64,000 nt of DNA, from the NCBI GenBank assembly GCA_946480915.1, contig CAMLLO010000002.1, positions 62,001-126,000 of the forward strand, given 5' to 3'. Both the position numbers and the translations under genes were made by a program. The DNA comes from an uncultured Sphingobacteriaceae bacterium (GTDB taxonomy: Bacteria; Bacteroidota; Bacteroidia; Sphingobacteriales; Sphingobacteriaceae). The notes under the pieces were generated by a model. That model searched no databases, had not been told where the DNA came from, and saw only the letters and a list, made by a program, of their open reading frames with translations. Shown one piece after another: positions 2,701-34,616 of this stretch (within the stretch, counting starts at the first letter, position 1; each line of letters begins with the position of its first letter).

Positions 2701-3165
2701 ATGGCTGAATTAAAAGAAGGCGATACAGCGCCGCAATTTACCGCACAAGACCAAAACGGAGACACCATCTCTTTAGGTGATTTTAAAGGAAAGGATGTGA
2801 TTTTATACTTCTATCCTAAAGATGACACACCGGGATGTACAGCAGAAGCTTGCGACTTCCGTGATAATTATCAGTCGCTGCAGGCGCAGGGCTTTAATGT
2901 AATTGGAGTAAGCACAGATGATGAGACATCACATAAAAAGTTTGTGAATAAATACCAGCTTCCGTTTACCCTGATCGCTGATACGGATAAAAGTATTGTA
3001 GAAGCTTATGGAGTATGGGTCGAGAAAAACATGTACGGTAAAAAATACATGGGAACAGCAAGAAAAACTTTTATAATTGATAAAGAAGGAAAAATCAAAA
3101 AGATTATCGATAAAGTGGATACCAAAGAATCATCCAAGCAAGTTTTGGAATTACTAAACAACTAG
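2701..3165 (+). CDS. bcp: Thioredoxin-dependent thiol peroxidase (bacterioferritin comigratory protein)
   Basis: A 154-residue peroxiredoxin of the BCP/PrxQ group. It reduces hydrogen peroxide and organic hydroperoxides in the cytoplasm, using thioredoxin as donor. The signature PKDDTPGCTAEACDFRD places the peroxidatic cysteine at residue 46 and the resolving cysteine at 51, five residues apart as in PrxQ-type enzymes. The TARKTFIIDKEGKI segment is the usual late motif. Length is standard. It starts 3 bases after the M23 gene, so it is probably the last gene of the operon that begins at 372. A strong hairpin follows. Confidence 0.96.
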   Translation: MAELKEGDTAPQFTAQDQNGDTISLGDFKGKDVILYFYPKDDTPGCTAEACDFRDNYQSLQAQGFNVIGVSTDDETSHKKFVNKYQLPFTLIADTDKSIVEAYGVWVEKNMYGKKYMGTARKTFIIDKEGKIKKIIDKVDTKESSKQVLELLNN

Positions 3166-15209: not shown

Positions 15210-15367
15210 GTTATTGTATTTCTTACAAGGTGCCGGATATAGCTTTTGGAGCCTTTGTGAATATCAAGTTTAGATAATTTGAATCGGCTAAGAAATGATC
15301 TGAATCAAGGACTGAAAAATTAGCAAATTGATAAAAACTCCAGAACAAAGCCTTCGGAAATTGCTAA

Positions 15368-19712: not shown

Positions 19713-19724
19713 TGATTAGCATCA
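19713..19724. promoter_or_regulatory. FNR-type operator TGAT-N4-ATCA (aldolase side)
   Basis: TGATTAGCATCA is a perfect TGAT-N4-ATCA palindrome. Its centre lies about 66 bases before the ATG of the tandem aldolase. It fits the E-T-I-S-R recognition helix of the regulator coded at 26621. Confidence 0.6.
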
Positions 19725-19800
19725 CGTTATAAAGCGATTTATATCTTGCCAACAACACTTTATGAAACAGGATAGCATCTGATACAATTAATCAGCCGCG

Positions 19801-19812
19801 TGATTAACATCA
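19801..19812. promoter_or_regulatory. FNR-type operator TGAT-N4-ATCA (coiled-coil gene side)
   Basis: TGATTAACATCA is a second perfect palindrome in the same 233-base divergent intergenic region. Its centre lies about 80 bases before the ATG at 19886. A near -7 box (TATTTTG) follows at about 19815. Confidence 0.6.
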
Positions 19813-19885
19813 TTTATTTTGATAATTGCAATCATCTCAGCCGTCGTTCTAATACAATAATTTCATCCTTTAATCGAAAAAAGAA

Positions 19886-20337
19886 ATGGAAACCAAAATA
19901 TATTCGTCTGCAGGCTTTTTGCATGCCTGTAGTGCCGAAGAATTGTATGTTATAACCAGACATTGGTTATCCGATATTATTTTTTTTGAACAGGAGATAA
20001 ATTTTTTCCAATCCTTAGTTCAGAATTATTTTCTTCCTTCCGGGGAGAGAGGTTTTGAAAAACTCCTACTTTATTATCCAGAAACATATCGCCAATGTCG
20101 GAAAACGGAAAGATGTTTTAAAAGACAGTCTTAATGCATCAAAATGAATTAAGTGCTATATTAGATAAAGACAATGCGGCAAAACACGATTCGTATAATC
20201 TTATACAATCGCAGATTGAAGCAGAATTATTTGATTTTATCAAGACCTACAGAAGCGTTAAACGGGAGCTGTTTAAAGCAAGTGAATATATTTGTAGAAC
20301 AAAATCAGAAAAGAGGATCTTCCTAACTCATCATTAA
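19886..20337 (+). pseudogene. Frameshifted coiled-coil protein, paralogue of the gene at 24839-25270
   Basis: Three reading frames together resemble the intact 143-residue protein coded at 24839-25270. The first (from 19886) contains ELYVITRHWLSDIIFFEQ, matching ELYLISKHWISDLEFFTR in the paralogue. The middle (about 20043-20144, another frame) reads as a lysine-rich helix. The last (from about 20134) has FIKTYRSVKRELFKASEYI, matching LLQIFKSVKQRVFKLTSERI. Two frame changes, near 20041-20060 and near 20134, are therefore needed, so the gene is broken unless the assembly has errors. The function is unknown. It retains an FNR-type operator upstream. Confidence 0.7.
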
Positions 20338-20339
20338 AC

Positions 20340-20747
20340 ATGAAAAAAATACTTTATTGTGGATTAATTGTAGGCATAAGTCTGTTTATTATCAGCTATG
20401 GAGGCTTATTTCTTGCAATCCGCTTTGTTCCTGAGCTGTTTGTAGTTTACAATAATCCACTATTCAATTCTGACGGAAGCAGGGATATTCTGTTTTATTT
20501 GCATGCCTTTATTATAAGCTTTGCCCTATCATGGTTCTGGGAGAGGTTCAAAACTCTTTTTTCAGGTCCATTTCTCCTCAGAGGTGTTGAGTTTGGGTTT
20601 GTTTACGCAATTGTCGCTTTATTACCTGTCATGTGGATTACCTTTAGCTCCTTAGATATTACCATTGTGATAGTTTTGAGCTGGTTTATTTACGGTTTTT
20701 TACAGGCGCTTGTCGCCGGAGTTATGTTTGCCAAGATAAATCCATAA
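20340..20747 (+). CDS. Small membrane protein of unknown function
   Basis: A 135-residue protein with about four predicted membrane helices (residues about 5-28, 52-68, 80-105 and 109-130) and no catalytic motif that I recognise. It begins 2 bases after the broken coiled-coil gene and so was probably cotranscribed with it, behind the FNR-type operator at 19801. I cannot assign a family. Context suggests a membrane protein made under low oxygen. Confidence 0.65.
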   Translation: MKKILYCGLIVGISLFIISYGGLFLAIRFVPELFVVYNNPLFNSDGSRDILFYLHAFIISFALSWFWERFKTLFSGPFLLRGVEFGFVYAIVALLPVMWITFSSLDITIVIVLSWFIYGFLQALVAGVMFAKINP

Positions 20748-20898
20748 TCGTTGAAAGCCATGTTGGTGCGAGTTCAAAAACCTACCTGGTTCTTAAGCCA
20801 TCAAGACTCATTCGGATCTATAATAGATCTTTGCGCATTTGTCGGATATGCAGATTTGAAGTAAGAGAAAAGCCGATTCTGCTACCAGCTTGTTATGA

Positions 20899-21504
20899 CT
20901 AATCTACCACCTTCATTCTCAAGTTAAATACCACGTTTAACTCATTGTTAGTTTGAATCATTCCCCCAATCTTTCGCGGAGGAATAATATTAAAATCAGA
21001 GAAATTTATTTGGCGAGTTCCGATCAGATTTACTACTTTTTCGCCTCCTGATAAAAACTTATAATCCACTTCTAAACGTCGCGTTACTCCAGCTAATTCA
21101 ATGGCCACTATCCCTTTTATCAAATCAGGTTTAAGATCCAGGTCAGGATACCGATTCAAATTTATAAACCTTATTGTCAGCTTTGGAAACTCTTTTGCCT
21201 TTAATGTTTTCCTCAAATCGCTTGTCATAATCGGATGATGGCAGTCAAAATTCCGGACATCCAGTATCAAAGAACCACTTATTGGAAAAGTTTCTTTATT
21301 TGCGTACTTATAAAGATATAAAGTGTCTGGATTCGCATAATTTGCTATTAGGCAAGTAAATTTATTAACATTGGTACTGCCATCAACTCTCAAAGAGCCA
21401 CCCTTCATAATAACCCATTTCGTTATTTGAGGCTTATTCATCTGACTATTGAAAGCAGAAAACAAAATAAGCATAAGAAGCAAAAGAGTTTTCTGAGGAA
21501 GCAT
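20899..21504 (-). CDS. YceI-like exported protein (divergent)
   Basis: A 201-residue protein with a hydrophobic signal (about residues 5-20) and the core pattern of YceI lipocalin-like barrels: WVIMKGGSLRVDGSTNVNKFTC near the N-terminus, then SLILDVRNFDC, DLRKTLKAKEFPKLTIRF, and a final INFSDFNI..P. YceI proteins bind polyisoprenoids or other amphiphiles in the periplasm, and some are induced by acid or osmotic stress. The ATG at 21504 is chosen over the TTG two codons upstream. It is more divergent than the second YceI at 22934 and follows the porin gene, separated by a strong terminator. Confidence 0.75.
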   Translation of the reverse strand: MLPQKTLLLLMLILFSAFNSQMNKPQITKWVIMKGGSLRVDGSTNVNKFTCLIANYANPDTLYLYKYANKETFPISGSLILDVRNFDCHHPIMTSDLRKTLKAKEFPKLTIRFINLNRYPDLDLKPDLIKGIVAIELAGVTRRLEVDYKFLSGGEKVVNLIGTRQINFSDFNIIPPRKIGGMIQTNNELNVVFNLRMKVVD

Positions 21505-21525
21505 ATGCAATATCTTAATTTACAC

Positions 21526-21565
21526 AAAAAAAGCAGGCCGACCCAGACCGACCTGCTTTTTTTTT
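21526..21565 (-). terminator. Terminator between the porin and the YceI-like gene
   Basis: A 12-base-pair stem (21526-21537 with 21552-21563) and a 14-base loop, flanked by long A and T runs on both sides. It is 12 bases beyond the stop of the porin gene. Confidence 0.85.
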
Positions 21566-21576
21566 GAAATATTTGA

Positions 21577-22893
21577 TTAAAAACCTACAACAGCTTGTAT
21601 TACGTATCCTTTAAATTCACCTCCATTGCGGTAGTCGGCGGCAGGTAAATTTTTGTATTGTTGTTTAACATATTCGCCTTTTAACAATATGTTATCAGTT
21701 AAGAACCATCCTGCGCTAAAAGCTATACGATCAACTTTTACATCCTGGGTATAAGTAATTGGAGCCGTTCCTGCTATGTTCATTGGCCTGTATTCTAAGA
21801 CATTGTACCTTGCACCTACAAAGAAATTCTCTGCAGCGCCAATTCTATAAACACCGTCAATCGCATATTGAGTTGCTTTTCTATCCTTTGCTTCAGTTTT
21901 AGTTCTTCCGTTTGCAACTTCATAAGTTCCGAAAAGCTCCAGGCCGTAAGCCTTAGCAAATCCATTTACCTGAACAGCGTCTACACGTTTGCTAAATCCC
22001 GGACTAACACGGCCAGATGTGAACTGATCAGTAGATTTACTTCCAGCTTTCTCCAAAACCATGAAGTAATTAGAACCGGTACGGTCGCCCGCATAAAGAG
22101 TGTTACCACCAGAGCTTTTATTTCCATAATAAGATCCAGAAAGGCGGACACGAACATCCTCAGTTAATTGTTTATCGAAGCCGGCTTTTAGATAAATCGC
22201 AGGTGACTTATGAATATCATTATCCTGAGCAGTTGCTATAAGGCTATCAATATTACCTTTTACCATACCGTTAGTAATTCCAACTAAACCAAAGAACCCA
22301 CTTGCCCTAACTAAAACCTCACCGCCAATTTCAGTTGTAAATGCATCCATTATATAGTTTTCGGCAAAAGGATTGTAGAGGGTGTGCCCACCATCAGATC
22401 TACGGAAATGCTGATCGCCGTAATTAATTTCCATGTGTCCGACTTTAATAGTTGTAAACTTCATGATATCATCCCATATCTGACCTTTGAAGGGAAGTTT
22501 ATCAAATTGAATATAACCGCCTTTAACCCATGTTTCGTTATGGTGACGAGATGATAAATAGCTGGTTAAATTTAAACGAATTCCTTCTGCCAATTGTACA
22601 TCCATGAACAAATTAGCGTTCGCAGTATTGAAGCCAGGAGTCATTTTGTATAAACCGCCTGACGTGTTTTCGTGCTTTAAGCCCTGAAATGATTGAGTAA
22701 AACCTGCACCCCATTTAATTTTGATATTCTCGAACGCTGCATTCGTGTCTTTTGCAGCTTCGAACACATTGATACCACTTTTATCGTAAGGTCTAAGATT
22801 TGAAACCTCGGTTTGTGCTTGTAGTGCAACCGGACTTACCAGTATTAAGGCAAGGGCAGCAGTTTTAAAAATGTTAGATAATTGAGTTTTCAT
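21577..22893 (-). CDS. Outer-membrane beta-barrel (porin-like) protein
   Basis: A 438-residue protein with a clear signal peptide (about residues 1-26, ending LQAQ) and alternating amphipathic beta-strands to the end, finishing in a C-terminal phenylalanine (QAVVGF) as expected for outer-membrane barrels. A family-specific segment reads KVGHMEINYGDQHFRRSDGG (about 150-170). It looks like a 16-18-strand porin, but no substrate-specific motif is visible. Its neighbours on both sides are YceI proteins on the same strand. Confidence 0.8.
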   Translation of the reverse strand: MKTQLSNIFKTAALALILVSPVALQAQTEVSNLRPYDKSGINVFEAAKDTNAAFENIKIKWGAGFTQSFQGLKHENTSGGLYKMTPGFNTANANLFMDVQLAEGIRLNLTSYLSSRHHNETWVKGGYIQFDKLPFKGQIWDDIMKFTTIKVGHMEINYGDQHFRRSDGGHTLYNPFAENYIMDAFTTEIGGEVLVRASGFFGLVGITNGMVKGNIDSLIATAQDNDIHKSPAIYLKAGFDKQLTEDVRVRLSGSYYGNKSSGGNTLYAGDRTGSNYFMVLEKAGSKSTDQFTSGRVSPGFSKRVDAVQVNGFAKAYGLELFGTYEVANGRTKTEAKDRKATQYAIDGVYRIGAAENFFVGARYNVLEYRPMNIAGTAPITYTQDVKVDRIAFSAGWFLTDNILLKGEYVKQQYKNLPAADYRNGGEFKGYVIQAVVGF

Positions 22894-22933
22894 GTTTTTA
22901 ATTATTATTAGTGAATATTTAATGATTAGGTTG

Positions 22934-23542
22934 TTATTTCTTTAGCTTTAATACAATATCAACAGTAACTTCATTGGCAACTTTTAATGCCCCCATCATA
23001 AAAGTTGGAGCTTTAATGTTGAAATCGGTCATTTTGATGGCTTTTGAACCTTTACAAATAAGTTCATCGCCGTCAATAGTATAATTTGTTTGGAGGGTAA
23101 CTGTCTTCGTTACTCCAGCTATACTTAAATTCCCTGTCGCTTTGATTACCTTTTGCTGCGGTACAACAGTGGCATCTATTAATTTGAAAGTGATCTTATT
23201 ATACTGTTCTGCTTTTAGTGCTTTATGAGCTCTCGTGGTTAGTAAATCTTCTTTACCCTTTAAATTAGCAACCGGAAGTGAAAAATTCAGAGAAGAAACA
23301 TCTGCCAGCTCATCACCTTTTAGAGTAAAGGTTCCATCACAACTGAAGGCGTTTGCAGTCATTATCCAGTCGTGAATGTTTGATGTTCCGTTTACCTTAA
23401 TAACAGAGCCGGAAGCGACCTTAAAGGGAGTTTGGGCCTGGACTGTTGATGTAAGAGCATTGAAGCTTAGTGCTAATATCAGGGTAAAAAGCTGACCTGC
23501 ACGATTTCTTAATTTACTGGCATTGACATTTAAAACTTTCAT
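22934..23542 (-). CDS. YceI family protein
   Basis: A 202-residue periplasmic protein with a signal peptide (about 15-37, ending VQAQ). The YceI barrel shows FKVASGSVIKVNGTSNIHDW, LNFSLPVANLKGKEDLLTTRAHKALKAE, ITFKL, LSIAGVTKTVTL and a final IKMTDFNIKAPT. YceI proteins carry hydrophobic ligands in a long tunnel. The gene heads a block followed by the porin gene. An exact TAnnTTTG box lies on the minus strand at 23578-23585, about 35 bases upstream of the ATG. Confidence 0.92.
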   Translation of the reverse strand: MKVLNVNASKLRNRAGQLFTLILALSFNALTSTVQAQTPFKVASGSVIKVNGTSNIHDWIMTANAFSCDGTFTLKGDELADVSSLNFSLPVANLKGKEDLLTTRAHKALKAEQYNKITFKLIDATVVPQQKVIKATGNLSIAGVTKTVTLQTNYTIDGDELICKGSKAIKMTDFNIKAPTFMMGALKVANEVTVDIVLKLKK

Positions 23543-23577
23543 AATATTTCATTTTGATTAGTGTATTTTCTTTAGCA

Positions 23578-23585
23578 CAAATCTA
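23578..23585 (-). promoter_or_regulatory. -7 promoter box of the YceI gene
   Basis: TAGATTTG on the minus strand is an exact match to TAnnTTTG, about 36 bases before the YceI start codon. No -33 element is visible. Confidence 0.5.
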
Positions 23586-23724
23586 TCCTTGACGCTGAGC
23601 ATATTGAATGATGTGGCGGGTTAAAAAAAATGATCTTAAACACTATTTTGAAGAAAAAATCAGAGCGAAAGCCAGCGTTAAAAAGAAATCAAATAAAGCG
23701 TCTGCATACAGAGCAATAAAACAA

Positions 23725-23760
23725 AAAGGAGATAAAAAGCTGCGAAGCCATCTCTCCTTT
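23725..23760 (-). terminator. Terminator after the universal stress protein gene
   Basis: An 8-base-pair stem (23753-23760 with 23725-23732) with a shorter inner stem in the loop. On the minus strand it is followed by a T-rich tail (TTTTTGTTTTATT). It lies just beyond the stop of the stress protein gene at 23794. Confidence 0.6.
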
Positions 23761-23793
23761 ATTAATTCTTTTCAGGTATGTGAACAGTAATTC

Positions 23794-24723
23794 CTATCGT
23801 GAATCATCCGGTTCGTAGCAATAATGATCAAGCTGTTCGTTAGAGAGATCGGCCACGTCTACGCTAAAATGGTTAGGAAGCACCAGTATGGGTATTTTAG
23901 AATTGTTTGCCATTTGCTTACTAACACTTGAATGGAACAATCCTTCAAAAAAGCCATATTGTTTATGAACAAGAGTCAATAAATCCGCTTTCCCCGAACC
24001 GGTGATCTGTAGCAATTCTTTCGAAATATTGGCGCCCTTAATATTTTTATATAAAATCTTAGGATGATCAGGAGGTAGTGACTCATAAACAGAATGTTTG
24101 ACAACTTTTTCCGAATCAATATCTGGTAAACCATAAGGAGAAATATGACTCACTAAAATTTCAGAGTCGCAGGCAACTGCAATTTCGCTCAGATACTTTA
24201 GAACTTTTGAATCGCTAAAGGTCAGGTCTGTGGCATAGGTTATTAAGCGAATTCCATTAAACTTCAAGCTTTCGGGCACCAGCAAAACCGGACATTTGAT
24301 ATTATCCAACACATCATGTGTATGGCTGCCAAATAGAAACCGTGATAAGCCGTTGGACTTATGAGAACCCATCATCACCAGATCAACACCCTTGTCCTTT
24401 ATAATATCTGAAACAACAACAGATAATTTCCCAAAATCGCTAATGCATGATATCCTCGGCTTAAATCCTGAAGCAGATTCTGCCGGAATACTTTCTTTCA
24501 TCCGCCTGGCGATCTCTTTCAGGTCAGCCAGACTTTCTTGCTTAAGAGCAAGATGATCTGCAATCGGCCAGGCAATTTGTTCTGCCATTGGCGCACTTTC
24601 TATAATTTCCAGAGCATTGCAAAGCAAAATATTAGCTTTTAGTTTCAAAGCCATTTGCAGTGCATATTCGGAAGCGGAATGAGCTCGTGTTGAAAAGTCG
24701 GTTAATAAAAGGATAGTTTTCAT
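23794..24723 (-). CDS. Tandem universal stress protein
   Basis: A 309-residue protein with two UspA domains (about residues 1-155 and 158-300). The first has the ATP-binding type motif MGSHKSNGLSRFLFGSHTHDVLDNIKCPVLLVPE, close to G-2x-G-9x-G(S). The second is degenerate (VHKQYGFFEGLFHSSVSKQMANNSKIPILVLP). Such tandem proteins are often induced at low oxygen, as in DosR or FNR regulons. Here a one-mismatch FNR-type palindrome lies about 60 bases upstream, and the FixL-like kinase operon lies 0.7 kb away. Confidence 0.93.
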   Translation of the reverse strand: MKTILLLTDFSTRAHSASEYALQMALKLKANILLCNALEIIESAPMAEQIAWPIADHLALKQESLADLKEIARRMKESIPAESASGFKPRISCISDFGKLSVVVSDIIKDKGVDLVMMGSHKSNGLSRFLFGSHTHDVLDNIKCPVLLVPESLKFNGIRLITYATDLTFSDSKVLKYLSEIAVACDSEILVSHISPYGLPDIDSEKVVKHSVYESLPPDHPKILYKNIKGANISKELLQITGSGKADLLTLVHKQYGFFEGLFHSSVSKQMANNSKIPILVLPNHFSVDVADLSNEQLDHYCYEPDDSR

Positions 24724-24777
24724 AACATCGAATTATTTTATGTACGTAAAAATCATTTATAATACATTAAATTACAA

Positions 24778-24789
24778 TGACTTAAATCA
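24778..24789. promoter_or_regulatory. Imperfect FNR-type operator upstream of the stress protein gene
   Basis: TGACTTAAATCA differs from TGAT-N4-ATCA at one base. Its centre is about 60 bases from the ATG of the universal stress protein, a similar placement to the perfect sites nearby. Confidence 0.4.
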
Positions 24790-24838
24790 CAATAACCAAT
24801 AACGTATCCACTCTCTCATAACATCTTCCGCTCCACAA

Positions 24839-25270
24839 CTAACTTGTTTGTTTTGAATTAATAGCCTTTATTCTTTCAGAAGTTAGTTTGAAAACACGTT
24901 GTTTTACTGACTTAAATATTTGAAGAAGAGCACCAATCTCGCGTTCAAGAAGGGAGTGAGTTTCTATGAGATTAAGCTCATAGTTGTGGTTAGCATTACT
25001 TATAAGTGGCTCAAGTAATGCAAGATAATTTGATACCTTTCTTTTGATCTCGGCATTTTGAGTTTGAAGATTTAACACATTCAGCTTCAGCTCAAGTAAG
25101 TTTTCACTTATTTCGTGCTTTTTCGATTGAGCCCAACATCTCTCAACCAGCTTCTGTAAGAAACTTAAATCCCTGGTAAAAAACTCTAAATCAGAAATCC
25201 AATGTTTGCTGATTAGATAAAGTTCCTGCAATTCTGCATTAAGCTGATTTTCTTCTATCACAGTTGTCAT
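24839..25270 (-). CDS. Coiled-coil protein of unknown function (intact paralogue of 19886-20337)
   Basis: A 143-residue, highly helical cytoplasmic protein without a recognised domain. Residues 14-45 (ELYLISKHWISDLEFFTRDLSFLQKLVE) and 100-135 (LLQIFKSVKQRVFKLTSER) are conserved with the broken copy at 19886, which marks them as functional segments. It is divergent from the FixL-like kinase gene, and a perfect FNR-type palindrome lies between them. I infer a role in low-oxygen or stress physiology from location only. Confidence 0.75.
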   Translation of the reverse strand: MTTVIEENQLNAELQELYLISKHWISDLEFFTRDLSFLQKLVERCWAQSKKHEISENLLELKLNVLNLQTQNAEIKRKVSNYLALLEPLISNANHNYELNLIETHSLLEREIGALLQIFKSVKQRVFKLTSERIKAINSKQTS

Positions 25271-25344
25271 GACGCTTTGTATTTATATCATCAAAATTCA
25301 TCGTTAATTACCGCGACTCCGATGACACCTGTCAATTTATTCTA

Positions 25345-25356
25345 TGATCTTTATCA
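25345..25356. promoter_or_regulatory. FNR-type operator between the coiled-coil gene and the FixL-like kinase
   Basis: TGATCTTTATCA is a perfect TGAT-N4-ATCA palindrome. Its centre is about 37 bases upstream of the -7 box TATATTTG of the kinase operon, whose second gene codes the matching FNR-type output domain. This implies autoregulation. It lies about 80 bases from the ATG of the divergent gene and could serve both. Confidence 0.65.
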
Positions 25357-25386
25357 GTTTTAGGTAATTTAAAACCAATCTTAATT

Positions 25387-25394
25387 TATATTTG
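25387..25394 (+). promoter_or_regulatory. -7 promoter box of the FixL-like kinase operon
   Basis: TATATTTG is an exact TAnnTTTG match. The usual -33 TTTG is missing at 18-20 bases upstream, as expected for an activator-dependent promoter. Confidence 0.55.
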
Positions 25395-25436
25395 CTTTAA
25401 TCGCATTGTAAATGAAAGTTATGTTTGTAAAAGTTA

Positions 25437-26624
25437 ATGGATAAGTCAAAACTGCTGAACGCAATAATCGAATCCGCAATTGATGGCATAATAACTATCG
25501 ATTCGCGGGGGATAATTGAAACGATGAATCCTGCTGCCTTAACTCTGTTTGGGTATCAGGAGATAGAAGTGAAAGGGGAAAATATTTCTGTACTGATGCC
25601 CGAGCCTTACAAAAGTGCTCACGATGGATACATACACAGATATCAGAGCACAGGAGAAAGGCGTATCATCGGCATAGGCAGGGAAGTTTTAGGCCTACGA
25701 AAAGATGGCTCAACTTTTCCTTTTCGGCTTGCTGTGAGTGAGGTTGAGTACGAAGACAGAAAAATATTTACAGGTTTTGTTCACGATCTTTCTAAAGAAA
25801 AGGAAGCAGAAGAAAGGTTGAAGAAATATACCGAGGAGCTGGAAGAAAAAGTAAAAAACAGAACTCAAAACTTAGAACATCTTATTGTTGAATTAGAAAA
25901 AGCCAGAGATGAGGCTAGCCATTCTTTAGAAAAAGAAAAGGAACTTAATCAGCTTAAAACAAGGTTTGTTTCGATGGCCTCACACGAGTTCAGAACCCCG
26001 TTAAGCTCAGTTCAGTTGTCGGCCTCCCTAATTGAAAAGTACCTGCAAAAAGCAGATTCAGGCAATATTTTAAAACATACCGGTAAAATAAAAAATTCTG
26101 TAGGCCATCTTACCGGTATTTTAAACGACTTTTTATCCCTCGAAAAACTGGAAGCGGGAAAAACACAGGTACAATTTCAGGAATTTGATCTGGTTAAATT
26201 TTCTGAAGACATAGTTGAAGAGATGCAGTTAATTTCTAAGCAGAATCAACACATTGTTTATCAGCATACCGGGGCTACAAGCCAGGTTTTTCTAGATCCG
26301 GCCTTACTAAAAAGCGCTGCTATAAATCTTGTTTCAAATGCCATAAAGTATTCAGGAGAAAACACTTTTATTGAGTTTAACTCGGAGGTGACTGAAAACG
26401 AAGTATACATCACTGTAAAAGACAATGGAATAGGTATTCCTCTTGAAGAACAGAAAAACCTTTTCGAACCCTTTTTCAGGGCCCATAACACCGGAAATAT
26501 CCCGGGAACGGGCTTAGGATTAAATATTGTAAAAAGATATGTTGAAATGATGGGTGGAGAAGTAATTTGCCAAAGCGCCCAAAATAAGGGAACAACAATT
26601 TCTTTAATTTTTAAAATAGAATGA
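25437..26624 (+). CDS. FixL-like PAS sensor histidine kinase
   Basis: A 395-residue soluble kinase. The PAS domain (residues 5-125) follows the heme-binding PAS of FixL closely: LMPEPYKSAHDGYIHRYQ, then IIGIGREVLGLRKDGSTFPF. By alignment from memory, H62 corresponds to the heme-ligating histidine of FixL (H200 in Bradyrhizobium), and R68 and R82 to R206 and R220, which sense bound oxygen. A coiled coil (125-172), HisKA with H183 (SMASHEFRTP) and HATPase (N-box NLVSNAIKYS, G-boxes DNGIGIP and GTGLGLNIV) follow. There is no membrane segment. The stop overlaps the next gene by 4 bases. It probably phosphorylates the regulator at 26621 in response to oxygen or another gas. Confidence 0.9.
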   Translation: MDKSKLLNAIIESAIDGIITIDSRGIIETMNPAALTLFGYQEIEVKGENISVLMPEPYKSAHDGYIHRYQSTGERRIIGIGREVLGLRKDGSTFPFRLAVSEVEYEDRKIFTGFVHDLSKEKEAEERLKKYTEELEEKVKNRTQNLEHLIVELEKARDEASHSLEKEKELNQLKTRFVSMASHEFRTPLSSVQLSASLIEKYLQKADSGNILKHTGKIKNSVGHLTGILNDFLSLEKLEAGKTQVQFQEFDLVKFSEDIVEEMQLISKQNQHIVYQHTGATSQVFLDPALLKSAAINLVSNAIKYSGENTFIEFNSEVTENEVYITVKDNGIGIPLEEQKNLFEPFFRAHNTGNIPGTGLGLNIVKRYVEMMGGEVICQSAQNKGTTISLIFKIE

Positions 26625-27688
26625 ACGCATCAAAGAAGACCGTACTTTTAATTGAAGACAATCAGGATATACGTGAAAGTACGGCAGAAATACTTGAATT
26701 AGCAGGTTTTACCGTATATACTGCCGAGAATGGCAAAAAAGGTGTTGAACTCGCTCAGTCGCGCACACCTGATATTATTTTGTGCGACATTATGATGCCG
26801 GAGCTGGATGGGTACGGCGTTCTTTACCTGCTGAGTAAAAATGCTAACACAGCAGACATCCCTTTTATATTTCTGACAGCAAAAGCTGAACGGACCGATA
26901 TGCGTAAAGGGATGGAAATGGGAGCGGACGACTATTTAACCAAACCTTTCGACGATATGGAATTGTTGAATGCGATAGAAAGTCGTTTACAAAAGAAAGA
27001 ACGGTCCATTAAAAATGCCGGAAATGCCGCTTCTCTAGAATCCTTACTTGATGAAGCCCGTTCTTCCAAATTATTGAATGAACTTTCTGTGAACAGCCGC
27101 ATCCGCGCTTATAAGAAAAAGCAGAACATTTACATGGACGGCGACCAGGCGCTAAACGTGTATCTGGTAAAAAGCGGAAAAGTAAGAACGTTTATGGTTT
27201 ACCAGGATGGACGTGAAATTGTAACGGGGATGTTTACAACAGGCGATTTTTTAGGATATGAAGCCGTGCTTCTAAACAAGCCGTATCCTGAAAATGCAGA
27301 AGCTCTTGACTCTGCAGAACTTCATCTGATACCTAGAAACGACTTTAATGCCTTGTTATTCAAAGATTTGGGAATTGCTAAAAAGTTCATAGAACTGCTT
27401 TCAGGCAATCTTCAGGAAAAGCAAGAGCAACTCTTAAAGCTCGCTTATAATTCTGTTAGAAAAAGAGTAGCCGACGCACTGATAGATTTGGCAAGAAAAT
27501 TTGCGGGAGCAACAGTAGAAACCTGCGAGATCAAAGTTTCACGTGATGATCTGGCCGCAATGGTTGGCACAGCAAACGAAACTATCAGCCGCACCCTGGC
27601 GGATTTTAAAGAAGAGAGATTAATTGAAAAAGAAGGCAGCATCATCAAAATCCTATCCCTTGAAAGATTAAAGCGAATAAAACAGTAA
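26621..27688 (+). CDS. Response regulator with CRP/FNR-type DNA-binding output
   Basis: A 355-residue fusion. The receiver domain occupies residues 5-125 (acidic pocket E12, D13; phosphorylation site D56 in CDIMMP; K108 in LTKPF). A CRP-like effector domain covers about 155-275. The winged helix-turn-helix (about 280-350) reads VSRDDLAAMVGTANETISRTLADFKEE. The recognition helix has E320, S323 and R324, the E-x-x-S-R set that FNR uses to read TGAT/ATCA, not the R-E-x-x-x-R of CRP. Only two cysteines are present (C55, C302), so no FNR-type iron-sulfur cluster is possible. Phosphorylation by the upstream kinase should replace that signal. The target sites in this window are listed separately. 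Confidence 0.92.
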   Translation: MNASKKTVLLIEDNQDIRESTAEILELAGFTVYTAENGKKGVELAQSRTPDIILCDIMMPELDGYGVLYLLSKNANTADIPFIFLTAKAERTDMRKGMEMGADDYLTKPFDDMELLNAIESRLQKKERSIKNAGNAASLESLLDEARSSKLLNELSVNSRIRAYKKKQNIYMDGDQALNVYLVKSGKVRTFMVYQDGREIVTGMFTTGDFLGYEAVLLNKPYPENAEALDSAELHLIPRNDFNALLFKDLGIAKKFIELLSGNLQEKQEQLLKLAYNSVRKRVADALIDLARKFAGATVETCEIKVSRDDLAAMVGTANETISRTLADFKEERLIEKEGSIIKILSLERLKRIKQ

Positions 27689-27710
27689 AAGTGATTAAGA
27701 TCACTTTTAC
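27685..27710. promoter_or_regulatory. Strong FNR-type operator upstream of ldh-hemN
   Basis: An 11-base perfect inverted repeat, GTAAAAGTGAT with ATCACTTTTAC around TAAG, with TGAT-N4-ATCA at its core. It begins at the stop codon of the regulator gene. Its centre is about 52 bases upstream of the -7 box at 27749, compatible with class I activation (near -61 to -66 from the start). It could also form an RNA hairpin at the end of the upstream transcript. Confidence 0.7.
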
Positions 27711-27715
27711 CTTTG
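27708..27715 (+). promoter_or_regulatory. Alternative -7 box overlapping the FNR-type operator
   Basis: TACCTTTG matches TAnnTTTG exactly but overlaps the right half of the operator. If used, this promoter would be blocked by bound regulator while the downstream one is activated. Confidence 0.35.
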
Positions 27716-27748
27716 ATTAGCCTCATACCCTGGCCCCGACAACCGCAG

Positions 27749-27756
27749 TACTTTTG
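27749..27756 (+). promoter_or_regulatory. -7 promoter box of the ldh-hemN operon
   Basis: TACTTTTG matches TAnnTTTG exactly, 18 bases before the ATG at 27775. No -33 TTTG is present at the usual spacing, consistent with dependence on the operator upstream. Confidence 0.6.
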
Positions 27757-27774: not shown

Positions 27775-28791
27775 ATGAAAGCGGTTGCATACAGCAGTAA
27801 GATTTGCGAAAAAGAACTACTTATTAAGGCTAATAATAAGAAGCATGATATTACTCTGATATCGAACAGGCTCACCCTTGATACTATTTCTTACGCTAAA
27901 GGAAAAGATGCTGTTCTGGTTTTTTCCTGCGACGACCTTTCCGCCCCTATCCTTTCAAAGTTAAAGGAAATGGGTGTTAAATATATCTCCACCCGCTCTA
28001 CAGGAACAGATCATATTGATTTAAAAGAGGCCGAACGGCTTGGTTTAAAGGTTGGGAACGTCCCCGCTTATTCTCCCGAATCTGTTGCAGAACATGCAAT
28101 TACATTAATCCTTTCATTAGTACGAAACATTGTTGCCGCCCATAAGCAAATGCTGGAACATGATTTCAGCTTAAACAGTCTGGTGGGTTACACCATAAGA
28201 AATAAAACCGTTGGCATCGTAGGATTGGGACGCACGGGGCAAGCGCTCGCGCAAATCTTAACAGGTTTTGGGGCCAGAATTCTGGTAAGCGATACAGAAG
28301 ATGTAAGCGCCCTTTGTCAAACCTACGGCGCTACCCAGGTCTCTTTTGATGATCTTTTGAAACAATCTGACATCATATCCTTTCATGTACCCTTAAACGA
28401 TTCTACCCGTCATATGGTAAATGTTAAAACCATTGGCAAGATGAAAACCGGAGTAATTCTGATTAATGTTAGCCGTGGCGCTGTATTTAACAGCAAAGAG
28501 GTTCTTGAAGCCTTACAAAATGAAAAGATAAGTAAGCTTGGGATGGATGTGTATGAATTTGAACACAATGTATTCTTCTTTAATCACAGTAAAAGCCCGA
28601 TTGAAGACCCTTTACTTCAGGCATTTATAGATCATCCGAGAGTACTGCTAACTCCCCACATGGCATTTCTAACGGAAGAAGCTATCCATGTAATTTCCGA
28701 AAAAACCATTTCAAATCTTGACTCGTGGGAGGCCGAAAAAAACACGGCAAATGCCGGCCTGGACCAAGATACTGCTATTGTTTCCTGTTAA
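27775..28791 (+). CDS. ldhA: D-lactate dehydrogenase (2-hydroxyacid dehydrogenase family)
   Basis: A 338-residue NAD-dependent enzyme that reduces pyruvate to D-lactate, a fermentation step that regenerates NAD. The Rossmann motif is GIVGLGRTGQA (about residues 148-158). The catalytic arginine lies in NVSRGAVF, and the catalytic histidine in LLTPHMAFLT (about residue 299). The YEFEHNVFFFNHS segment before it is typical of the LdhA branch rather than of phosphoglycerate or glycerate dehydrogenases. It is first in an operon with hemN 12 bases downstream, behind the FNR-type operator, which fits induction at low oxygen. Confidence 0.9.
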   Translation: MKAVAYSSKICEKELLIKANNKKHDITLISNRLTLDTISYAKGKDAVLVFSCDDLSAPILSKLKEMGVKYISTRSTGTDHIDLKEAERLGLKVGNVPAYSPESVAEHAITLILSLVRNIVAAHKQMLEHDFSLNSLVGYTIRNKTVGIVGLGRTGQALAQILTGFGARILVSDTEDVSALCQTYGATQVSFDDLLKQSDIISFHVPLNDSTRHMVNVKTIGKMKTGVILINVSRGAVFNSKEVLEALQNEKISKLGMDVYEFEHNVFFFNHSKSPIEDPLLQAFIDHPRVLLTPHMAFLTEEAIHVISEKTISNLDSWEAEKNTANAGLDQDTAIVSC

Positions 28792-28803: not shown

Positions 28804-30144
28804 ATGACTTCAGAGCTAATAAAAAAATATAACGTTGCAGCCCCAAGATATACAAGTTACCCAACTGTTCCTTACTGGGATGCCGACAGTTGGAATCGGA
28901 AACAATGGTTTGAATCGATCAAGAAATCTTACGCAGAAAGCTCTTCAGAGGGTATAAGCCTATACGTTCATTTACCTTTTTGTGAAAGTTTATGCACCTA
29001 TTGTGGCTGCAACACGAGAATCACAAAAAATCACAGCGTAGAAGAACCGTACATAAATGCTGTACTTAAAGAATGGGAAATGTACTGCAATGTGCTTGGT
29101 TGCCGGCCAGCAATAAAAGAGATCCATTTGGGAGGCGGAACTCCCACATTTTTCGCACCCAAACACTTAAAAAAGCTTATCGATGGAATTATATCGAAGT
29201 CGATATTAACCAGCGACGCAGAATTCTCATTTGAAGCGCATCCGGCCAATACTACAGATGAACATCTAAAAACACTGTACAATCTCGGATTCAGAAGATT
29301 AAGCCTTGGCATACAAGACTTTGACCCCAAAGTTCAAGAGATAATAAATCGAAAGCAGAGTATTGAACAAGTGGAACATATTACTAAATATGCCCGCTAT
29401 ATCGGATATAACTCGATCAACTTCGATTTGATTTACGGCTTACCGCTACAAAAAATTTCCAGCGTAGAAAATACCATAAAAGAAGTTATAAAGCTGATGC
29501 CTGACCGTATTGCATATTATAGCTATGCGCATGTGCCGTGGATTAAACCCGGACAACGAAAATTCACGGAAGCGGATTTACCTGCCGACGATGAAAAACG
29601 AGCACTATATGAACGAGGTTGTGAATTGCTTTCGCATGCAGGCTATAAGAACATTGGCATGGATCATTTTTCTTTACCCACAGACAGTTTATACAAGGCA
29701 TCAGAAGGTGGTAAGCTTCACAGAAATTTTATGGGTTATACTCATCAGTACACCAAACTTTCATTAGGAATTGGAGTATCATCGATTAGTGACAGCTGGT
29801 ATGCTTTTGCGCAGAACATTAAAAAGCTTGAGCTATACCTCGAAAAAATAGAACGTGGAGAATTTCCATTAATGAAAGGTCATATTCTAAGCGAAAGTGA
29901 TCTGGAGTCCCGAAGAGAGATCTTAAATATTATGTGTAAAGGGTACACTGATATGAGAAGGACCAATTCGCAATTGGTCAAACGTTTACTACCTCTGCGA
30001 AGAGACGATCTGATAAAATTCAATTACAGAACCCTTTACGTCACTTCCCTTGGAAAGAATTTTTTAAGAAATATATGTATGGCTTTTGACGAACGCCTTT
30101 GGAACAGTCCTGCCGATGATCAAACATTCAGTAAGGCAGTTTAA
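28804..30144 (+). CDS. hemN: Oxygen-independent coproporphyrinogen III dehydrogenase
   Basis: A 446-residue radical SAM enzyme that decarboxylates coproporphyrinogen III to protoporphyrinogen IX without oxygen. The [4Fe-4S]-SAM motif is PFCESLCTYCGC (C60, C64, C67). HLGGGTPTFF, FEAHPANTT and RLSLGIQDFDPKVQEIINR are the expected HemN motifs, and the N-terminal YNVAAPRYTSYPTVPYW is typical of true HemN rather than HemW. It is coded between ldhA and an unknown protein in one operon, so heme synthesis and fermentation appear to be switched together. Confidence 0.95.
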   Translation: MTSELIKKYNVAAPRYTSYPTVPYWDADSWNRKQWFESIKKSYAESSSEGISLYVHLPFCESLCTYCGCNTRITKNHSVEEPYINAVLKEWEMYCNVLGCRPAIKEIHLGGGTPTFFAPKHLKKLIDGIISKSILTSDAEFSFEAHPANTTDEHLKTLYNLGFRRLSLGIQDFDPKVQEIINRKQSIEQVEHITKYARYIGYNSINFDLIYGLPLQKISSVENTIKEVIKLMPDRIAYYSYAHVPWIKPGQRKFTEADLPADDEKRALYERGCELLSHAGYKNIGMDHFSLPTDSLYKASEGGKLHRNFMGYTHQYTKLSLGIGVSSISDSWYAFAQNIKKLELYLEKIERGEFPLMKGHILSESDLESRREILNIMCKGYTDMRRTNSQLVKRLLPLRRDDLIKFNYRTLYVTSLGKNFLRNICMAFDERLWNSPADDQTFSKAV

Positions 30145-30167
30145 TTGAACTTTAATTGAATATAACA

Positions 30168-31952
30168 ATGAGCCACAGTTTTCACATCCCGGTTTTAGGA
30201 CTCGGATTTTCAATTGACACCCCACTTAAAGTTGCCAGATACGGCATATCTTCTGTTGTCTCTGTTGTAGATGATGAACTGATAGAACGGATGCGTCAGC
30301 ATCATTCGGAGAAAAACAAGCTACCTTTTTTGCCCATCAAAAAAACAGATGAGGACCACAGGGCCAAACGGATTACCGCCTATCTTAACTTATTAAACAC
30401 TTTGGTAGACTTACAGGTTACAGAGTTAAAGAGGCGTGAATTTACACCTGAATCAGACCTTACCCGGTACTTTGATTTACTGCCTGATGACTCAAAGCAG
30501 AAACAGGCATATAATGAAATGCTACTTGAAACTGACTTAAGTCAAAAAAAAATCCTTCAGGAAAAACTGAGATCAAACCTTCAAAAAGGCTCTATAGAAG
30601 TAAACATTATGTCTAAAGTAGACAAAATGAACTTTGGAAAAGATGGCATTTCAATCGGCGACAAATTTACAGATGCCCTTGCATCGTTAAGAGGCTTTGC
30701 GGAAAGCGATCTAAGTTCTTCTCTTATCCTGTCAGCAGGAATGAATCCACGGCTTTACAGCTATCTGGCAGAGTTTGATTGCTTTAATCCAAAAGTAGAT
30801 TCTGTTTTAAAGAAAAAGATCGTGTTAAAGGTGAGCGATTTTAGATCCGCTTTAATACAGGCCAAGTTCCTGGCAAAAAAAGGACTTTGGGTACACGAAT
30901 TTAGAATTGAATCGGGCTTAAACTGCGGAGGTCATGCCTTTGCCACGGAGGGCTATTTGCTGGGCCCTATCCTTCAGGAATTTAAAGATAAACGCACGGA
31001 GATGACCACCGAGCTTTATGGAATCTACAAGGCATTTCATAAAACCGAAGGTGAAATTGACGTTGAACAGCCTTCTACCAGGATATCTGTACAAGGCGGA
31101 ATAGGAACTGCCGAAGAGAACACTTTTCTGCAAAGGTATTACAACCTTGATGGAACAGGCTGGGGAAGTCCTTTTCTGCTGGTTCCGGAAGCAACAAACG
31201 TTGACAAAGATACGCTCAACCTGTTGAAGGATGCTACATCAAAAGACTTTTACATAAGTGGAGCTTCTCCATTGGGTATTCCGTTTAATAATTTCCGAAA
31301 AAGTACCGCCGAAATTCAACGACTTGACAGAATAGCAAAAGGCAGACCGGGCAGTCCTTGTAATAAAAAATTTTTGGTTTCGAATACTGAATTTACTACT
31401 GAAGCCATTTGTACTGCATCTCGCGAATATCAGAATTTGAAAATAAAACAACTTCAGGCGGCACAGCTTTCAGCGGAACAGTACGACTTTCAATTCAAGC
31501 AGGTAACTGAGAAGCTATGTTTGTGCGAAGGACTATGCTCCTCGGCGTATATTAAAAACAACATGCTTAAAGCGCGCGAAAACCCGGCAGTAGCTATTTG
31601 CCCCGGGCCAAATACAGCATTCTTTTCAGGCATTTACTCCCTTGATGAAATGGTGAAGCACATATATGGTAAACTTAACCTGCTCAAAAATGTCAATCGT
31701 CCTAACATTTTCATCAATGAACTTAAACTATATGTAGATTATCTTAAAAAGGATATCGAGAACAGTGCGCAAGAAATGACGGATAAAAAGGTTCAGCAGC
31801 TTGAACGTTTTAAAGAACAATTGCTTAATGGAATAGAATATTACCACCAGCTTTTTCCAAACATTCAAAAGTTCTGTGAATCGTGCAGCAAAACTTTCCA
31901 ACATGAGCTTAGGAGTTTAGATGCTCAAATTCAGCAGCTACAATTGAATTAG
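30168..31952 (+). CDS. Conserved protein of unknown function in the ldh-hemN operon
   Basis: A 594-residue protein without a signal peptide that I cannot assign to a characterised family. The N-terminal strand-loop VLGLGFSIDTPLKVARYGI and later GLNCGGHAFATEGYLLGP and RISVQGGIGTAEE look like phosphate- or flavin-binding turns of a TIM barrel, as in glutamate synthase or nitronate monooxygenase; this is only a visual likeness. The C-terminal third has cysteine clusters (CLCEGLC near residue 445, C-P-G-P near 480, CESC near 570) that could hold a metal or Fe-S cluster. The ATG at 30168 is preferred over the TTG at 30156. It lies 23 bases behind hemN, so it is probably a low-oxygen redox enzyme. 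Confidence 0.75.
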   Translation: MSHSFHIPVLGLGFSIDTPLKVARYGISSVVSVVDDELIERMRQHHSEKNKLPFLPIKKTDEDHRAKRITAYLNLLNTLVDLQVTELKRREFTPESDLTRYFDLLPDDSKQKQAYNEMLLETDLSQKKILQEKLRSNLQKGSIEVNIMSKVDKMNFGKDGISIGDKFTDALASLRGFAESDLSSSLILSAGMNPRLYSYLAEFDCFNPKVDSVLKKKIVLKVSDFRSALIQAKFLAKKGLWVHEFRIESGLNCGGHAFATEGYLLGPILQEFKDKRTEMTTELYGIYKAFHKTEGEIDVEQPSTRISVQGGIGTAEENTFLQRYYNLDGTGWGSPFLLVPEATNVDKDTLNLLKDATSKDFYISGASPLGIPFNNFRKSTAEIQRLDRIAKGRPGSPCNKKFLVSNTEFTTEAICTASREYQNLKIKQLQAAQLSAEQYDFQFKQVTEKLCLCEGLCSSAYIKNNMLKARENPAVAICPGPNTAFFSGIYSLDEMVKHIYGKLNLLKNVNRPNIFINELKLYVDYLKKDIENSAQEMTDKKVQQLERFKEQLLNGIEYYHQLFPNIQKFCESCSKTFQHELRSLDAQIQQLQLN

Positions 31953-33329: not shown

Positions 33330-34616
33330 TTATACTCCTTCCACGATCACGGCGTCTAAATTTGGAGCGGCTACATAGTTTCCTTTAGTTTTCTGTTGTA
33401 CATAGCTGTTGATGATGTAAATCAATACTATAGCAACAATCATAGAAATGATCACGACTAAACCTAAGGTATCGTAATGGTCTATTTTGCCGCTGCTTCT
33501 CTGCACAACTATTAATCCGGCAATAGCCGAAGCAACACCACCAGAAAATTGCTGTACAGATGAATTAATGCTCATAAATGCTCCCCGGTCCTGCGGTTCA
33601 GGAATGGCTGTCATGAGTGCAGAAGCAGAAATCATTCGGGAAGAGATACCCACAAAAAGAACAACATTTATAGAGATTACCATCCACAAAGGTGTAATTC
33701 CTAAGCTGGTATAAATTGCTACCATGACCATACTGATAATAGAACCTGCAAAAAACACCTTAAATTTTCCTATTCTATCACTTACTTTTCCAATTAGGGG
33801 ACCAAATATTATAGAAAACACACCGGTAACACCATAGAGTATTGGTAATTGATCGCGGGTTAAACCCATATTGTTTATTCCGAATGCAGTCCCGAAAGGC
33901 ATCAGCATAAAGCCTCCGGTAGCCAGGCAGGTGGTTCCAACAAAGGCTTTTAGATAATTAGAATTCGAAACTGTTTTAAACATGTGCTGAAAAGGATGAC
34001 GATCAGATTTAAATTTAAGATGCTCGGTAACGGGTTTCAAATACAGTAAAATAAAAAGTCCGAGGAAAATTCCGAAGCCAGCAATCATCCAGAACGGGGC
34101 GTGCCATCCGAAACTATTTGATAATATTAGTCCCACAGGTAAGCCAAAAATCTGGCTGGCAGCGAAGGCAGACTGAACAAATCCCATTACCCTGCCGCGC
34201 TGATCGAGTCGGAACAAATCGCTGATAATAGCAAAACTCACTGAGCTAATAACGCCCCCAAATATACCGGTTACAATCCTGGCGACAAGTAAGAGCGGAT
34301 AGGTTGGAGCGATAGCGCAAAGTAGAGTACCAACGATAAATCCCGTATAAAAGAACAACAAGAGTTTTTTCCGGTCAAACTTATCTGCAAAGCCGGCGGC
34401 TAACACTCCCGATGCTCCGGCGCTAAAGGCATAAGCCGAAACAACCAGCCCAAACTGCGAAGTAGTAATATGTAACTCTTCAAGAAGTCGCTCACCCAAG
34501 GGTGAAAGCACCATAAAATCGAGAACGATAGTAAATTGTAGAGACGCTAAGATCGTTATTACGAACACCTGATATTTCGAGAATCCACTCTCGTTACCTG
34601 CTTGGATATTGTCCAT
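33330..34616 (-). CDS. MFS transporter
   Basis: A 428-residue inner-membrane protein with 12 predicted helices. The MFS loop 2-3 motif appears as AGFADKFDRKKLLLFF (about residues 77-92), and loop 8-9 carries GPLIGKVSDRIGKFKVF. The N-terminal VLDFMVLSPLGERLLEEL resembles the sugar- or drug-efflux branch (DHA1). The substrate is unknown. It stands alone, with no regulator beside it. Confidence 0.88.
   Translation of the reverse strand: MDNIQAGNESGFSKYQVFVITILASLQFTIVLDFMVLSPLGERLLEELHITTSQFGLVVSAYAFSAGASGVLAAGFADKFDRKKLLLFFYTGFIVGTLLCAIAPTYPLLLVARIVTGIFGGVISSVSFAIISDLFRLDQRGRVMGFVQSAFAASQIFGLPVGLILSNSFGWHAPFWMIAGFGIFLGLFILLYLKPVTEHLKFKSDRHPFQHMFKTVSNSNYLKAFVGTTCLATGGFMLMPFGTAFGINNMGLTRDQLPILYGVTGVFSIIFGPLIGKVSDRIGKFKVFFAGSIISMVMVAIYTSLGITPLWMVISINVVLFVGISSRMISASALMTAIPEPQDRGAFMSINSSVQQFSGGVASAIAGLIVVQRSSGKIDHYDTLGLVVIISMIVAIVLIYIINSYVQQKTKGNYVAAPNLDAVIVEGV

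Follow-up and report, generated by a model that had tools for sequence, protein, structure and literature searches.

The window, the whole 64-kb stretch of DNA analysed here, contains a composite promoter layout whose spacing is precise and widespread in related bacteria. The composite is 65 bp long and is made up of two FNR-type boxes 22 bp apart and a Bacteroidota -7 element, TAnnTTTG, 57 bp from the start of box 1. The layout probably serves to activate low-oxygen genes, under the control of a heme-based oxygen sensor and a regulator that merges a receiver with an FNR-type domain (REC-FNR). There is good reason to think that the window carries the central part of a two-component regulon that responds to oxygen and would operate by the mechanism proposed below. 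No description of this promoter layout was found among the papers listed in searches of the PMC open-licence library.

A reading made from the sequence alone (the sequence-only reading) reported four perfect TGAT-N4-ATCA palindromes and one with a single mismatch, all intergenic, within 8 kb, and this observation is confirmed. The perfect sites start at 19713, 19801, 25345 and 27692 and the one-mismatch site at 24778, with intergenic status defined relative to the listed ORFs accepted as genes. Four of these coordinates are as first given, and the fifth was given as 27691. A scan of the whole window adds three perfect sites that the earlier reading lacks. Two are within ORFs (2862 in ORF 2701-3165 and 33413 in ORF 33330-34616) and one, 15296, is intergenic and upstream of a DUF4914 gene. 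The cluster holds four of the seven perfect sites in the window; the shuffle mean is 1.80 and none of 100 shuffles reaches seven. When up to one mismatch is allowed, there are 50 sites against 42.2 expected, and 13 of 100 shuffles contain 50 or more. A lone one-mismatch match therefore carries little weight.

The clustering of the palindromes, taken alone, is suggestive. If sites were as dense as in the genome of the nearest relative, which has 244 in 5.5 Mb, seven of them in the window would have p ~0.026 and four within 8 kb anywhere in 64 kb would have p ~0.012. This last value and the three perfect sites elsewhere in the window, two of them within ORFs, fit a reading in which the cluster arose by accident, from palindromes that match by chance or belong to an unrelated repeat. 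That reading is highly improbable, however, given the fixed 22- and 57-bp geometry before orthologous genes in dozens of species.

The conserved spacing between box and -7 element is the decisive evidence for the sites. In 80 related loci, a box starts 57 bp upstream of TAnnTTTG in 92 cases, compared with a mean of 0.33 cases at other spacings (57 and 35 left out). A second box is found 22 bp downstream of the first in 74 cases, compared with a mean of 0.94 at other distances. With two or fewer mismatches, these loci and the window contain 182 matches to the composite and 0 to the reversed pattern. A set of 12 genomes contains 102 composite matches and three reversed matches. Across the class, with no more than one mismatch, the composite is present in 77 of 119 genomes and the reversed control has 0 matches in every genome. 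When the -7 element is shifted by 5 bp, only two of the 119 genomes contain a match, and there are three reversed-control matches. A box and a -7 element at free spacing give 69 matches in eight genomes against 15 for the reversed pattern; nine of the 69 have the exact 57-bp spacing (by-eye count). Several of these nine are the already known sites of ldhA or the 598-aa gene. A single palindrome is rejected as the functional unit; the unit is the box pair at a fixed distance from TAnnTTTG.

Table 1. Positions of boxes, -7 elements and genes in the window.
Feature	Position	Strand	Details
Box 1, ldhA-hemN promoter	27692..27703	+	TGATTAAGATCA; composite 27692-27756, 0 mismatches
Box 2, ldhA-hemN promoter	27714..27725	+	TGATTAGCCTCA; 22 bp downstream of box 1
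-7 element, ldhA-hemN promoter	27749..27756	+	TACTTTTG; 57 bp from box 1 start
D-2-hydroxyacid (lactate-type) dehydrogenase	27775..28791	+	PF00389/PF02826
hemN, oxygen-independent coproporphyrinogen III oxidase	28804..30144	+	TIGR00538, 411 bits (cut-off 325)
598-aa protein	30156..31952	+	matches neither a Pfam nor an NCBIfam family
Box 1, coiled-coil gene promoter	25345..25356	-	composite 25292-25356, 1 mismatch
Box 2, coiled-coil gene promoter	25323..25334	-	TGACAGGTGTCA on minus strand
-7 element, coiled-coil gene promoter	25292..25299	-	GAATTTTG, 1 mismatch
143-aa coiled-coil-type protein (description from the earlier reading)	24839..25270	-	no Pfam family
Box 1 before broken coiled-coil paralogue	19801..19812	+	composite 19801-19865, 2 mismatches, both in -7
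Box 2 before broken coiled-coil paralogue	19823..19834	+	TAATTGCAATCA
YceI promoter box	23631..23642	-	TGTTTAAGATCA, one mismatch
YceI-like protein	22934..23542	-	PF04264
Solitary perfect palindrome	19713..19724	.	no partner box or placed -7
One-mismatch palindrome before Usp gene	24778..24789	.	no partner box or placed -7
Perfect palindrome before DUF4914 gene	15296..15307	.	no partner box or placed -7
FixL-like PAS histidine kinase	25437..26624	+	best PDB match FixL, E 8.8e-34
REC-FNR regulator	26621..27688	+	receiver, cNMP_binding and HTH_Crp_2 in one chain (Pfam)

The sequence-only reading placed all five clustered sites in one regulon. The sites at 27692 and 25345 belong to the layout (Table 1), and 19801 with its partner 19823 matches it weakly. 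The sites at 19713 (aldolase) and 24778 (stress protein, Usp) are rejected as members, as is 15296 (DUF4914); each has neither a second box nor a placed -7 element. These three solitary sites may well be chance matches. In the nearest relative, no box like 24778 precedes the Usp gene. The partner boxes at 27714, 25323 and 19823 and the one-mismatch site at 23631 are absent from the earlier reading.

In relatives, a box occupies the same place upstream of ldhA, and in Pedobacter-type loci the 598-aa gene has a separate box promoter. Site 25345 had been placed before the FixL-like operon, but it fits mainly the coiled-coil gene, which runs divergently on the minus strand and is the likely target of the 25345 and 25323 pair. 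Toward the FixL operon the fit is weak and poorly placed. A box with no more than one mismatch is found at -110 to -60 in six of 80 kinase genes, and a perfect box at -91/-92 is confined to the window and its nearest relative. Conserved autoregulation of the FixL operon through an upstream box is rejected as weak. In the YceI promoter, the -7 element (TAGATTTG at 23578-23585) has a spacing of 57 from the box at 23631, and no second box is recognisable. The box position is kept in six of seven YceI orthologues, the window counted. The gene behind it is the first of a run (20899-23542) of YceI, a 438-aa protein without a Pfam family, and YceI.

In the 80 related loci, a ccoNO-like gene is downstream in 49 of the 81 composite rows that do not precede a known gene; an example, from locus L076, scores above the cbb3 subunit I/II and ccoN/ccoO cut-offs. 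A scan of 56 downstream ORFs recovers 2-hydroxyacid dehydrogenase (eight), FixS (seven), COX1 (four), DoxX (three), Usp and Crp-type HTH (two each), and HypA, NiFe hydrogenase small subunit and E1-E2 ATPase (one each). The genes downstream of the composite include low-oxygen genes, namely ccoNO, FixS/ccoS, hemN, hydrogenase and Usp. In relatives, cbb3 oxidase genes are found under TGAT-N4-ATCA-type boxes, as in a FixK/FNR regulon. Inspection of the window ORFs by eye revealed no cco gene. A low-oxygen regulon with FNR-type boxes, as first suggested, is supported by the FixL-like PAS domain and by the many microaerobic genes downstream in relatives. Its description as local holds for the clustering near the FixL genes and not for its extent, as in relatives the layout also stands before cbb3 oxidase genes and other genes.

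The kinase PAS domain, aligned with the FixL structures 8js5/1dp6, is FixL-like, with the predicted heme residues kept. In an alignment of the window kinase and 79 relatives (the L063 kinase, whose match starts too late, is left out), all 80 sequences contain His62 and Arg82, which align with the FixL HD-Y and GR positions, and the phospho-acceptor His183. His62 is taken here to be the FixL heme-ligand His and Arg82 the regulatory Arg. The NCBIfam FixL equivalog, NF041777, scores 178 bits, under its cut-off of 850, and the PAS domain aligns from position 123 of this 485-position model. The kinase gene adjoins a full-length REC-FNR gene in 40 of 43 genomes with a strong kinase match; in four of these 40 pairs the kinase half alone is aligned and the FixL-type PAS is not covered.

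REC-FNR has the recognition helix ETISR. Asp56, Glu320 and Arg324 are present in 64 of 64 readable REC-FNR sequences and Ser323 in 63; the other 17 of 81 proteins are unreadable (gaps), probably where guessed starts hit a stop, and are left out of these counts. The only two cysteines, at positions 55 and 302, do not make up the N-terminal Cys cluster and one central Cys of a [4Fe-4S] FNR. Of the CRP-type NCBIfam models shown, FixK (NF050806) scores best, with 96.6 bits against a cut-off of 300.

In the proposed mechanism, falling oxygen would remove the ligand from the heme that the FixL-like kinase (25437-26624) is predicted to carry. The kinase would autophosphorylate and pass the phosphate to Asp56 of REC-FNR (26621-27688). 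REC-FNR would then occupy, as dimers, the two FNR-type boxes, whose centres are 22 bp apart and predicted to be ~62 and ~40 bp upstream of the transcription start. Such centres, near -40 and -62, would match the positions typical of class II and class I promoters, a likeness to E. coli-type FNR. Bound REC-FNR would contact RNA polymerase, whose Bacteroidota primary sigma factor would sit on the TAnnTTTG element at its fixed place. The targets activated would be the lactate-type dehydrogenase, hemN, the coiled-coil-type protein and the YceI proteins in the window and, in relatives, the cbb3 oxidase and the genes for its assembly.

Of 63 genomes that encode a full-length REC-FNR, 59 contain the composite; of 56 that do not, 18 contain it. 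The exceptions with REC-FNR are G014, G093, G101 and G115, at one mismatch. Among the genomes without full-length REC-FNR, the composite is found in 16 of 33 that have only other FNR-like matches and in two of 23 without any FNR-like match; three regulator classes are used because the FNR query also matches REC-FNR proteins. The Fisher p value for the association, 5e-13, overstates independence because the genomes are related. The best 17 candidates per genome were scored in the protein search, and absences are therefore uncertain. This distribution agrees with the earlier proposal that the regulator at 26621 reads the motif, and this regulator is the likely reader of the layout boxes. The nearest relative encodes three REC-FNR paralogues and one Cys-rich FNR, and with several FNR-type regulators the cognate pairing is therefore not unique.

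A separate [4Fe-4S]-type FNR encoded elsewhere could be the main reader of the boxes, with REC-FNR binding other sites or acting as a minor partner. The 247-aa FNR of the nearest relative, with its Cys-rich N terminus, is consistent with this, as is the composite in the genomes with only other FNR-like matches. Furthermore, a Cys-rich FNR gene adjoins the composite in five of eight examined REC-FNR-less genomes (of 18 with the composite). These standalone FNRs (L203, L206, L207, L213 and L222) have several N-terminal Cys and the recognition helix ET-x-IR; they share with REC-FNR the adjoining promoter composite but are without a receiver domain. Judging from the cysteines, they perhaps sense oxygen themselves through an Fe-S cluster. 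A separate main reader is nevertheless unlikely. The composite is commoner with REC-FNR, and of the 80 loci around FixL/REC-FNR genes, 73 contain it with two or fewer mismatches and seven do not. In the nearest relative, the helix of the Cys-rich FNR is ETVFR, unlike the ETISR of its REC-FNR.

Both regulators may share one DNA layout and act jointly or successively at different oxygen levels, a reading held tentatively. It is favoured by the composite adjoining both kinds of regulator and by an Alphaproteobacterial precedent: in PMC4999443, FnrN has an Fe-S cluster and FixK has none, and FnrN sites are described as taken over by FixK. The differing recognition helix in the nearest relative argues against it. 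This reading overlaps the preferred one, control through the FixL-like kinase and REC-FNR, and the confidences in the readings do not sum to one. On balance, there is a slight preference for one rigid low-oxygen promoter grammar across the Bacteroidota class, in which lineages swapped the sensor (FixL kinase with one-piece receiver-FNR versus self-sensing Fe-S FNR) and the layout stayed fixed.

The layout would provide a sequence rule that predicts low-oxygen genes from DNA alone in a very large bacterial class. Through its fixed geometry, the unusual sigma factor of Bacteroidota would be linked to the sensing of oxygen, and activator action at TAnnTTTG promoters becomes directly testable.

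The E-x-x-S-R recognition helix and the TGAT-N4-ATCA core are taken to be likenesses to E. coli-type FNR. Unlike that protein, REC-FNR has an N-terminal receiver and no Cys cluster, and direct Fe-S oxygen sensing is therefore not expected; the window contains no match to the strict TTGAT-N4-ATCAA. The box core also presumably resembles the FixK/FNR box. Like the FixL-FixJ-FixK systems of rhizobia and Caulobacter, the system here has a predicted FixL-type heme PAS kinase, and the relatives' boxes precede cbb3 oxidase genes (fixNO/ccoNO) and FixS. The final regulator here also belongs to the CRP/FNR family and is predicted to have no Fe-S cluster; FixK is described as having none (PMC4999443). 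Unlike in those systems, receiver and FNR-type domain form one protein, which is no FixK trait, and the kinase partner has cNMP_binding and HTH_Crp_2 domains in place of the LuxR/GerE-type HTH that follows the receiver in a separate FixJ. The FixJ-to-fixK transcription step is absent, and the boxes are paired at 22 bp and stand at a fixed distance from the Bacteroidota TAnnTTTG. The FixL/FixJ/FixK cascade would here be cut to one step through protein fusion.

The four perfect TGAT-N4-ATCA palindromes and the one-mismatch site that the sequence-only reading assigned to a local low-oxygen regulon of the regulator at 26621 are all present and all lie between genes, with one start amended from 27691 to 27692. 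The observation of a cluster stands. The window contains seven perfect sites against a mean of 1.80 in shuffled sequence, and none of 100 shuffles reaches seven. The relatives recovered point to a Sphingobacteriaceae-like bacterium as the source of the window, and genome-wide tests were made on the genomes of relatives. Desertivirga xinjiangensis has 244 sites in 5.5 Mb, and its copy of the regulator is 85% identical to that of the window; at this site density, four sites within 8 kb somewhere in a 64-kb window have a p of approximately 0.012. Clustering by itself is therefore only moderate evidence.

In the best 80 of 442 related stretches, each with up to 10 kb of flank per side, the boxes mostly keep a fixed position. 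Counting the window, 50 of 69 ldhA genes, 50 of 63 genes for a 598-aa protein and six of seven YceI genes have a box with no more than one mismatch 60-110 bp upstream. In most of these cases the best box starts 57 bp from the start of a TAnnTTTG element, and the intervening sequence varies; a few cases have 35 or 56 bp or no such element. PMC7366714 gives TAnnTTTG as the consensus of the -7 element for the primary sigma factor of Bacteroidota. When genes are ignored, TGAY-N4-RTCA and TAnnTTTG are found 57 bp apart 92 times, compared with a mean of 0.33 at other spacings (57 and 35 bp left out). There are nine cases at 35 bp, as would be expected where only the second box matches, and seven at 56 bp. 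A second, degenerate box follows at 22 bp in 74 cases, compared with a mean of 0.94 elsewhere. With the -7 element centred at -7, the two box centres would fall near -62 and -40, about where FNR classically binds in class I and class II promoters.

The composite of both boxes and the -7 element was written as TGAY-N4-RTCA-N10-TRA-N6-TCA-N23-TANNTTTG. With up to two mismatches it has 182 matches in the 80 loci and the window, and the reversed pattern has none; 67 of the 80 loci contain it at one mismatch or fewer and 73 at two or fewer. These counts are no independent test, as the pattern was derived from the same loci. In 12 genomes there are 102 matches compared with three for the reversed pattern. 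A mostly independent scan covered 119 genomes, D. xinjiangensis included, from its class (Bacteroidia in GTDB). The composite is present in 77 at up to one mismatch and is perfect in 50, with no reversed match in either scan. With the -7 element shifted by 5 bp it is found in two of the 119, with three reversed-control matches. In some genomes a single box pair fits on either strand, with the roles of box 1 and box 2 exchanged between the two sides; such a pair could serve two divergent promoters.

In the window, three composites are found at up to three mismatches, compared with a mean of 0.075 in simulated sequence (see table).

Sites, genes and other features (window coordinates unless a genome or locus is named)
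Feature	Position	Strand	Remark
Composite	27692	+	0 mismatches
Composite	25292-25356	-	1 mismatch
Composite	19801	+	2 mismatches
Box before YceI gene	23631		1 mismatch; 57-bp spacing kept; no recognisable second box
Palindromes	19713, 24778, 15296		partner box and placed -7 element both absent; 15296 perfect, between genes, outside cluster
Palindromes	2862, 33413		perfect, within ORFs, outside cluster
Small-protein genes	19886-20134; 24839-25270		first one broken
598-aa protein gene	30156-31952	+	
Bidirectional box pair	G018:C94:14473-14568		matches 14473-, 14504+
Bidirectional box pair	G084:C54:35907-36002		
Adjoining receiver-like and FNR-like ORFs	G070:C1:1599611-1600658		141 and 232 aa
REC-FNR paralogues, D. 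xinjiangensis (G001)	C11:959957; C25:179023; C11:933907	-; -; -	full-length
Short ldhA-slot genes	L134:1578-2006; L135:1578-2009		

Within the 80 loci, 81 composites (up to two mismatches) do not precede the window's own genes. A ccoNO-like gene is downstream in 49 of these, spread over 49 loci; one example passes the NCBIfam cut-offs as a cbb3 oxidase with subunits I and II fused. Among the others, as judged by N-terminal sequence, is a P-type ATPase for heavy metals whose metal-binding domains are arranged as in CcoI/FixI and whose family-level scores are under the NCBIfam copper cut-offs; a Crp-type regulator, an acetyl-CoA hydrolase, Usp and DoxX also occur. A second sample comprised 60 composites in loci L126-L152 and L173-L202; it leans to close relatives, and a few may be paired with the wrong ORF. 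Among the 25 of 57 families listed, the 56 downstream ORFs scanned include 2-hydroxyacid dehydrogenase (eight), FixS (seven), COX1 (four), DoxX (three), Usp, alcohol dehydrogenase and Crp-type HTH (two each), and NiFe hydrogenase small subunit, HypA, E1-E2 ATPase and AcetylCoA_hyd_C (one each). In L126 the downstream gene is hemN, above cut-off. The rest are in many cases small ORFs or ORFs with no name.

In Pedobacter-type loci the gene between the regulator and hemN is often short (approximately 142-151 aa in the examples listed), and the short form occupies the ldhA slot in 53 of 66 related loci. Its product retains segments of a D-2-hydroxyacid dehydrogenase but lacks the NAD domain, and it ends in a Cys-rich tail such as GKCVGKACCCQN. 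C-x3-5-CC(C)Q is present in 41 of the 53 short forms, and CC(C)Q in none of the 13 full-length ones. Two small window proteins, previously called coiled-coil, are encoded downstream of box pairs; the broken gene has a 149-aa relative, open throughout, in L001. The 598-aa protein matches no Pfam or NCBIfam family, and occurs in 62 of the 80 loci (63 with the window); its gene either belongs to the ldhA-hemN run or has a box promoter to itself.

The regulator (REC-FNR) combines a receiver that carries Asp56 with a cNMP-type domain and the recognition helix ETISR. The PAS domain of the neighbouring kinase matches FixL (E 8.8e-34), and 80 of 80 kinase sequences, window included, keep the His and Arg of the putative heme site as well as the phospho-acceptor His. 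A strong kinase match occurs in 43 genomes of the class-wide sample, and a full-length REC-FNR adjoins it in 40, read by eye; in four of the 40 pairs the kinase half alone aligned. In one genome, two adjoining ORFs next to the gene for a FixL-like kinase give receiver-like and FNR-like matches; REC-FNR may be present there in unfused form. The three paralogues in D. xinjiangensis carry the helices ETISR, ESVSR and ESLSR.

The composite is found in 59 of the 63 genomes with full-length REC-FNR compared with 18 of the 56 without (odds ratio 31, Fisher p 5e-13, a statistic that ignores kinship). Divided further, genomes with only other FNR-like matches have it in 16 of 33 cases and those with none in two of 23. 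Eight of the 18 were examined: in five, the gene of a standalone FNR whose N-terminal part holds several cysteines lies beside the composite, and in the other three no Cys-rich FNR gene was found within the short loci. One Cys-rich FNR is encoded in the nearest relative, at another place in the genome. The findings are most simply reconciled by a single promoter layout that two kinds of sensor would read. This is comparable to the Alphaproteobacteria, where FixK (no Fe-S) and FnrN (Fe-S) share sites, according to PMC4999443.

The low-oxygen regulon proposed from the sequence alone was right in kind, wrong for several sites and underrated as a finding. In the open-licence literature searched, no account of the fused FixL/REC-FNR system and its promoter layout was found. 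The window system represents a modified FixL/FixJ/FixK scheme, in which FixJ and FixK, otherwise separate, are fused, combined with a rigid Bacteroidota promoter layout.
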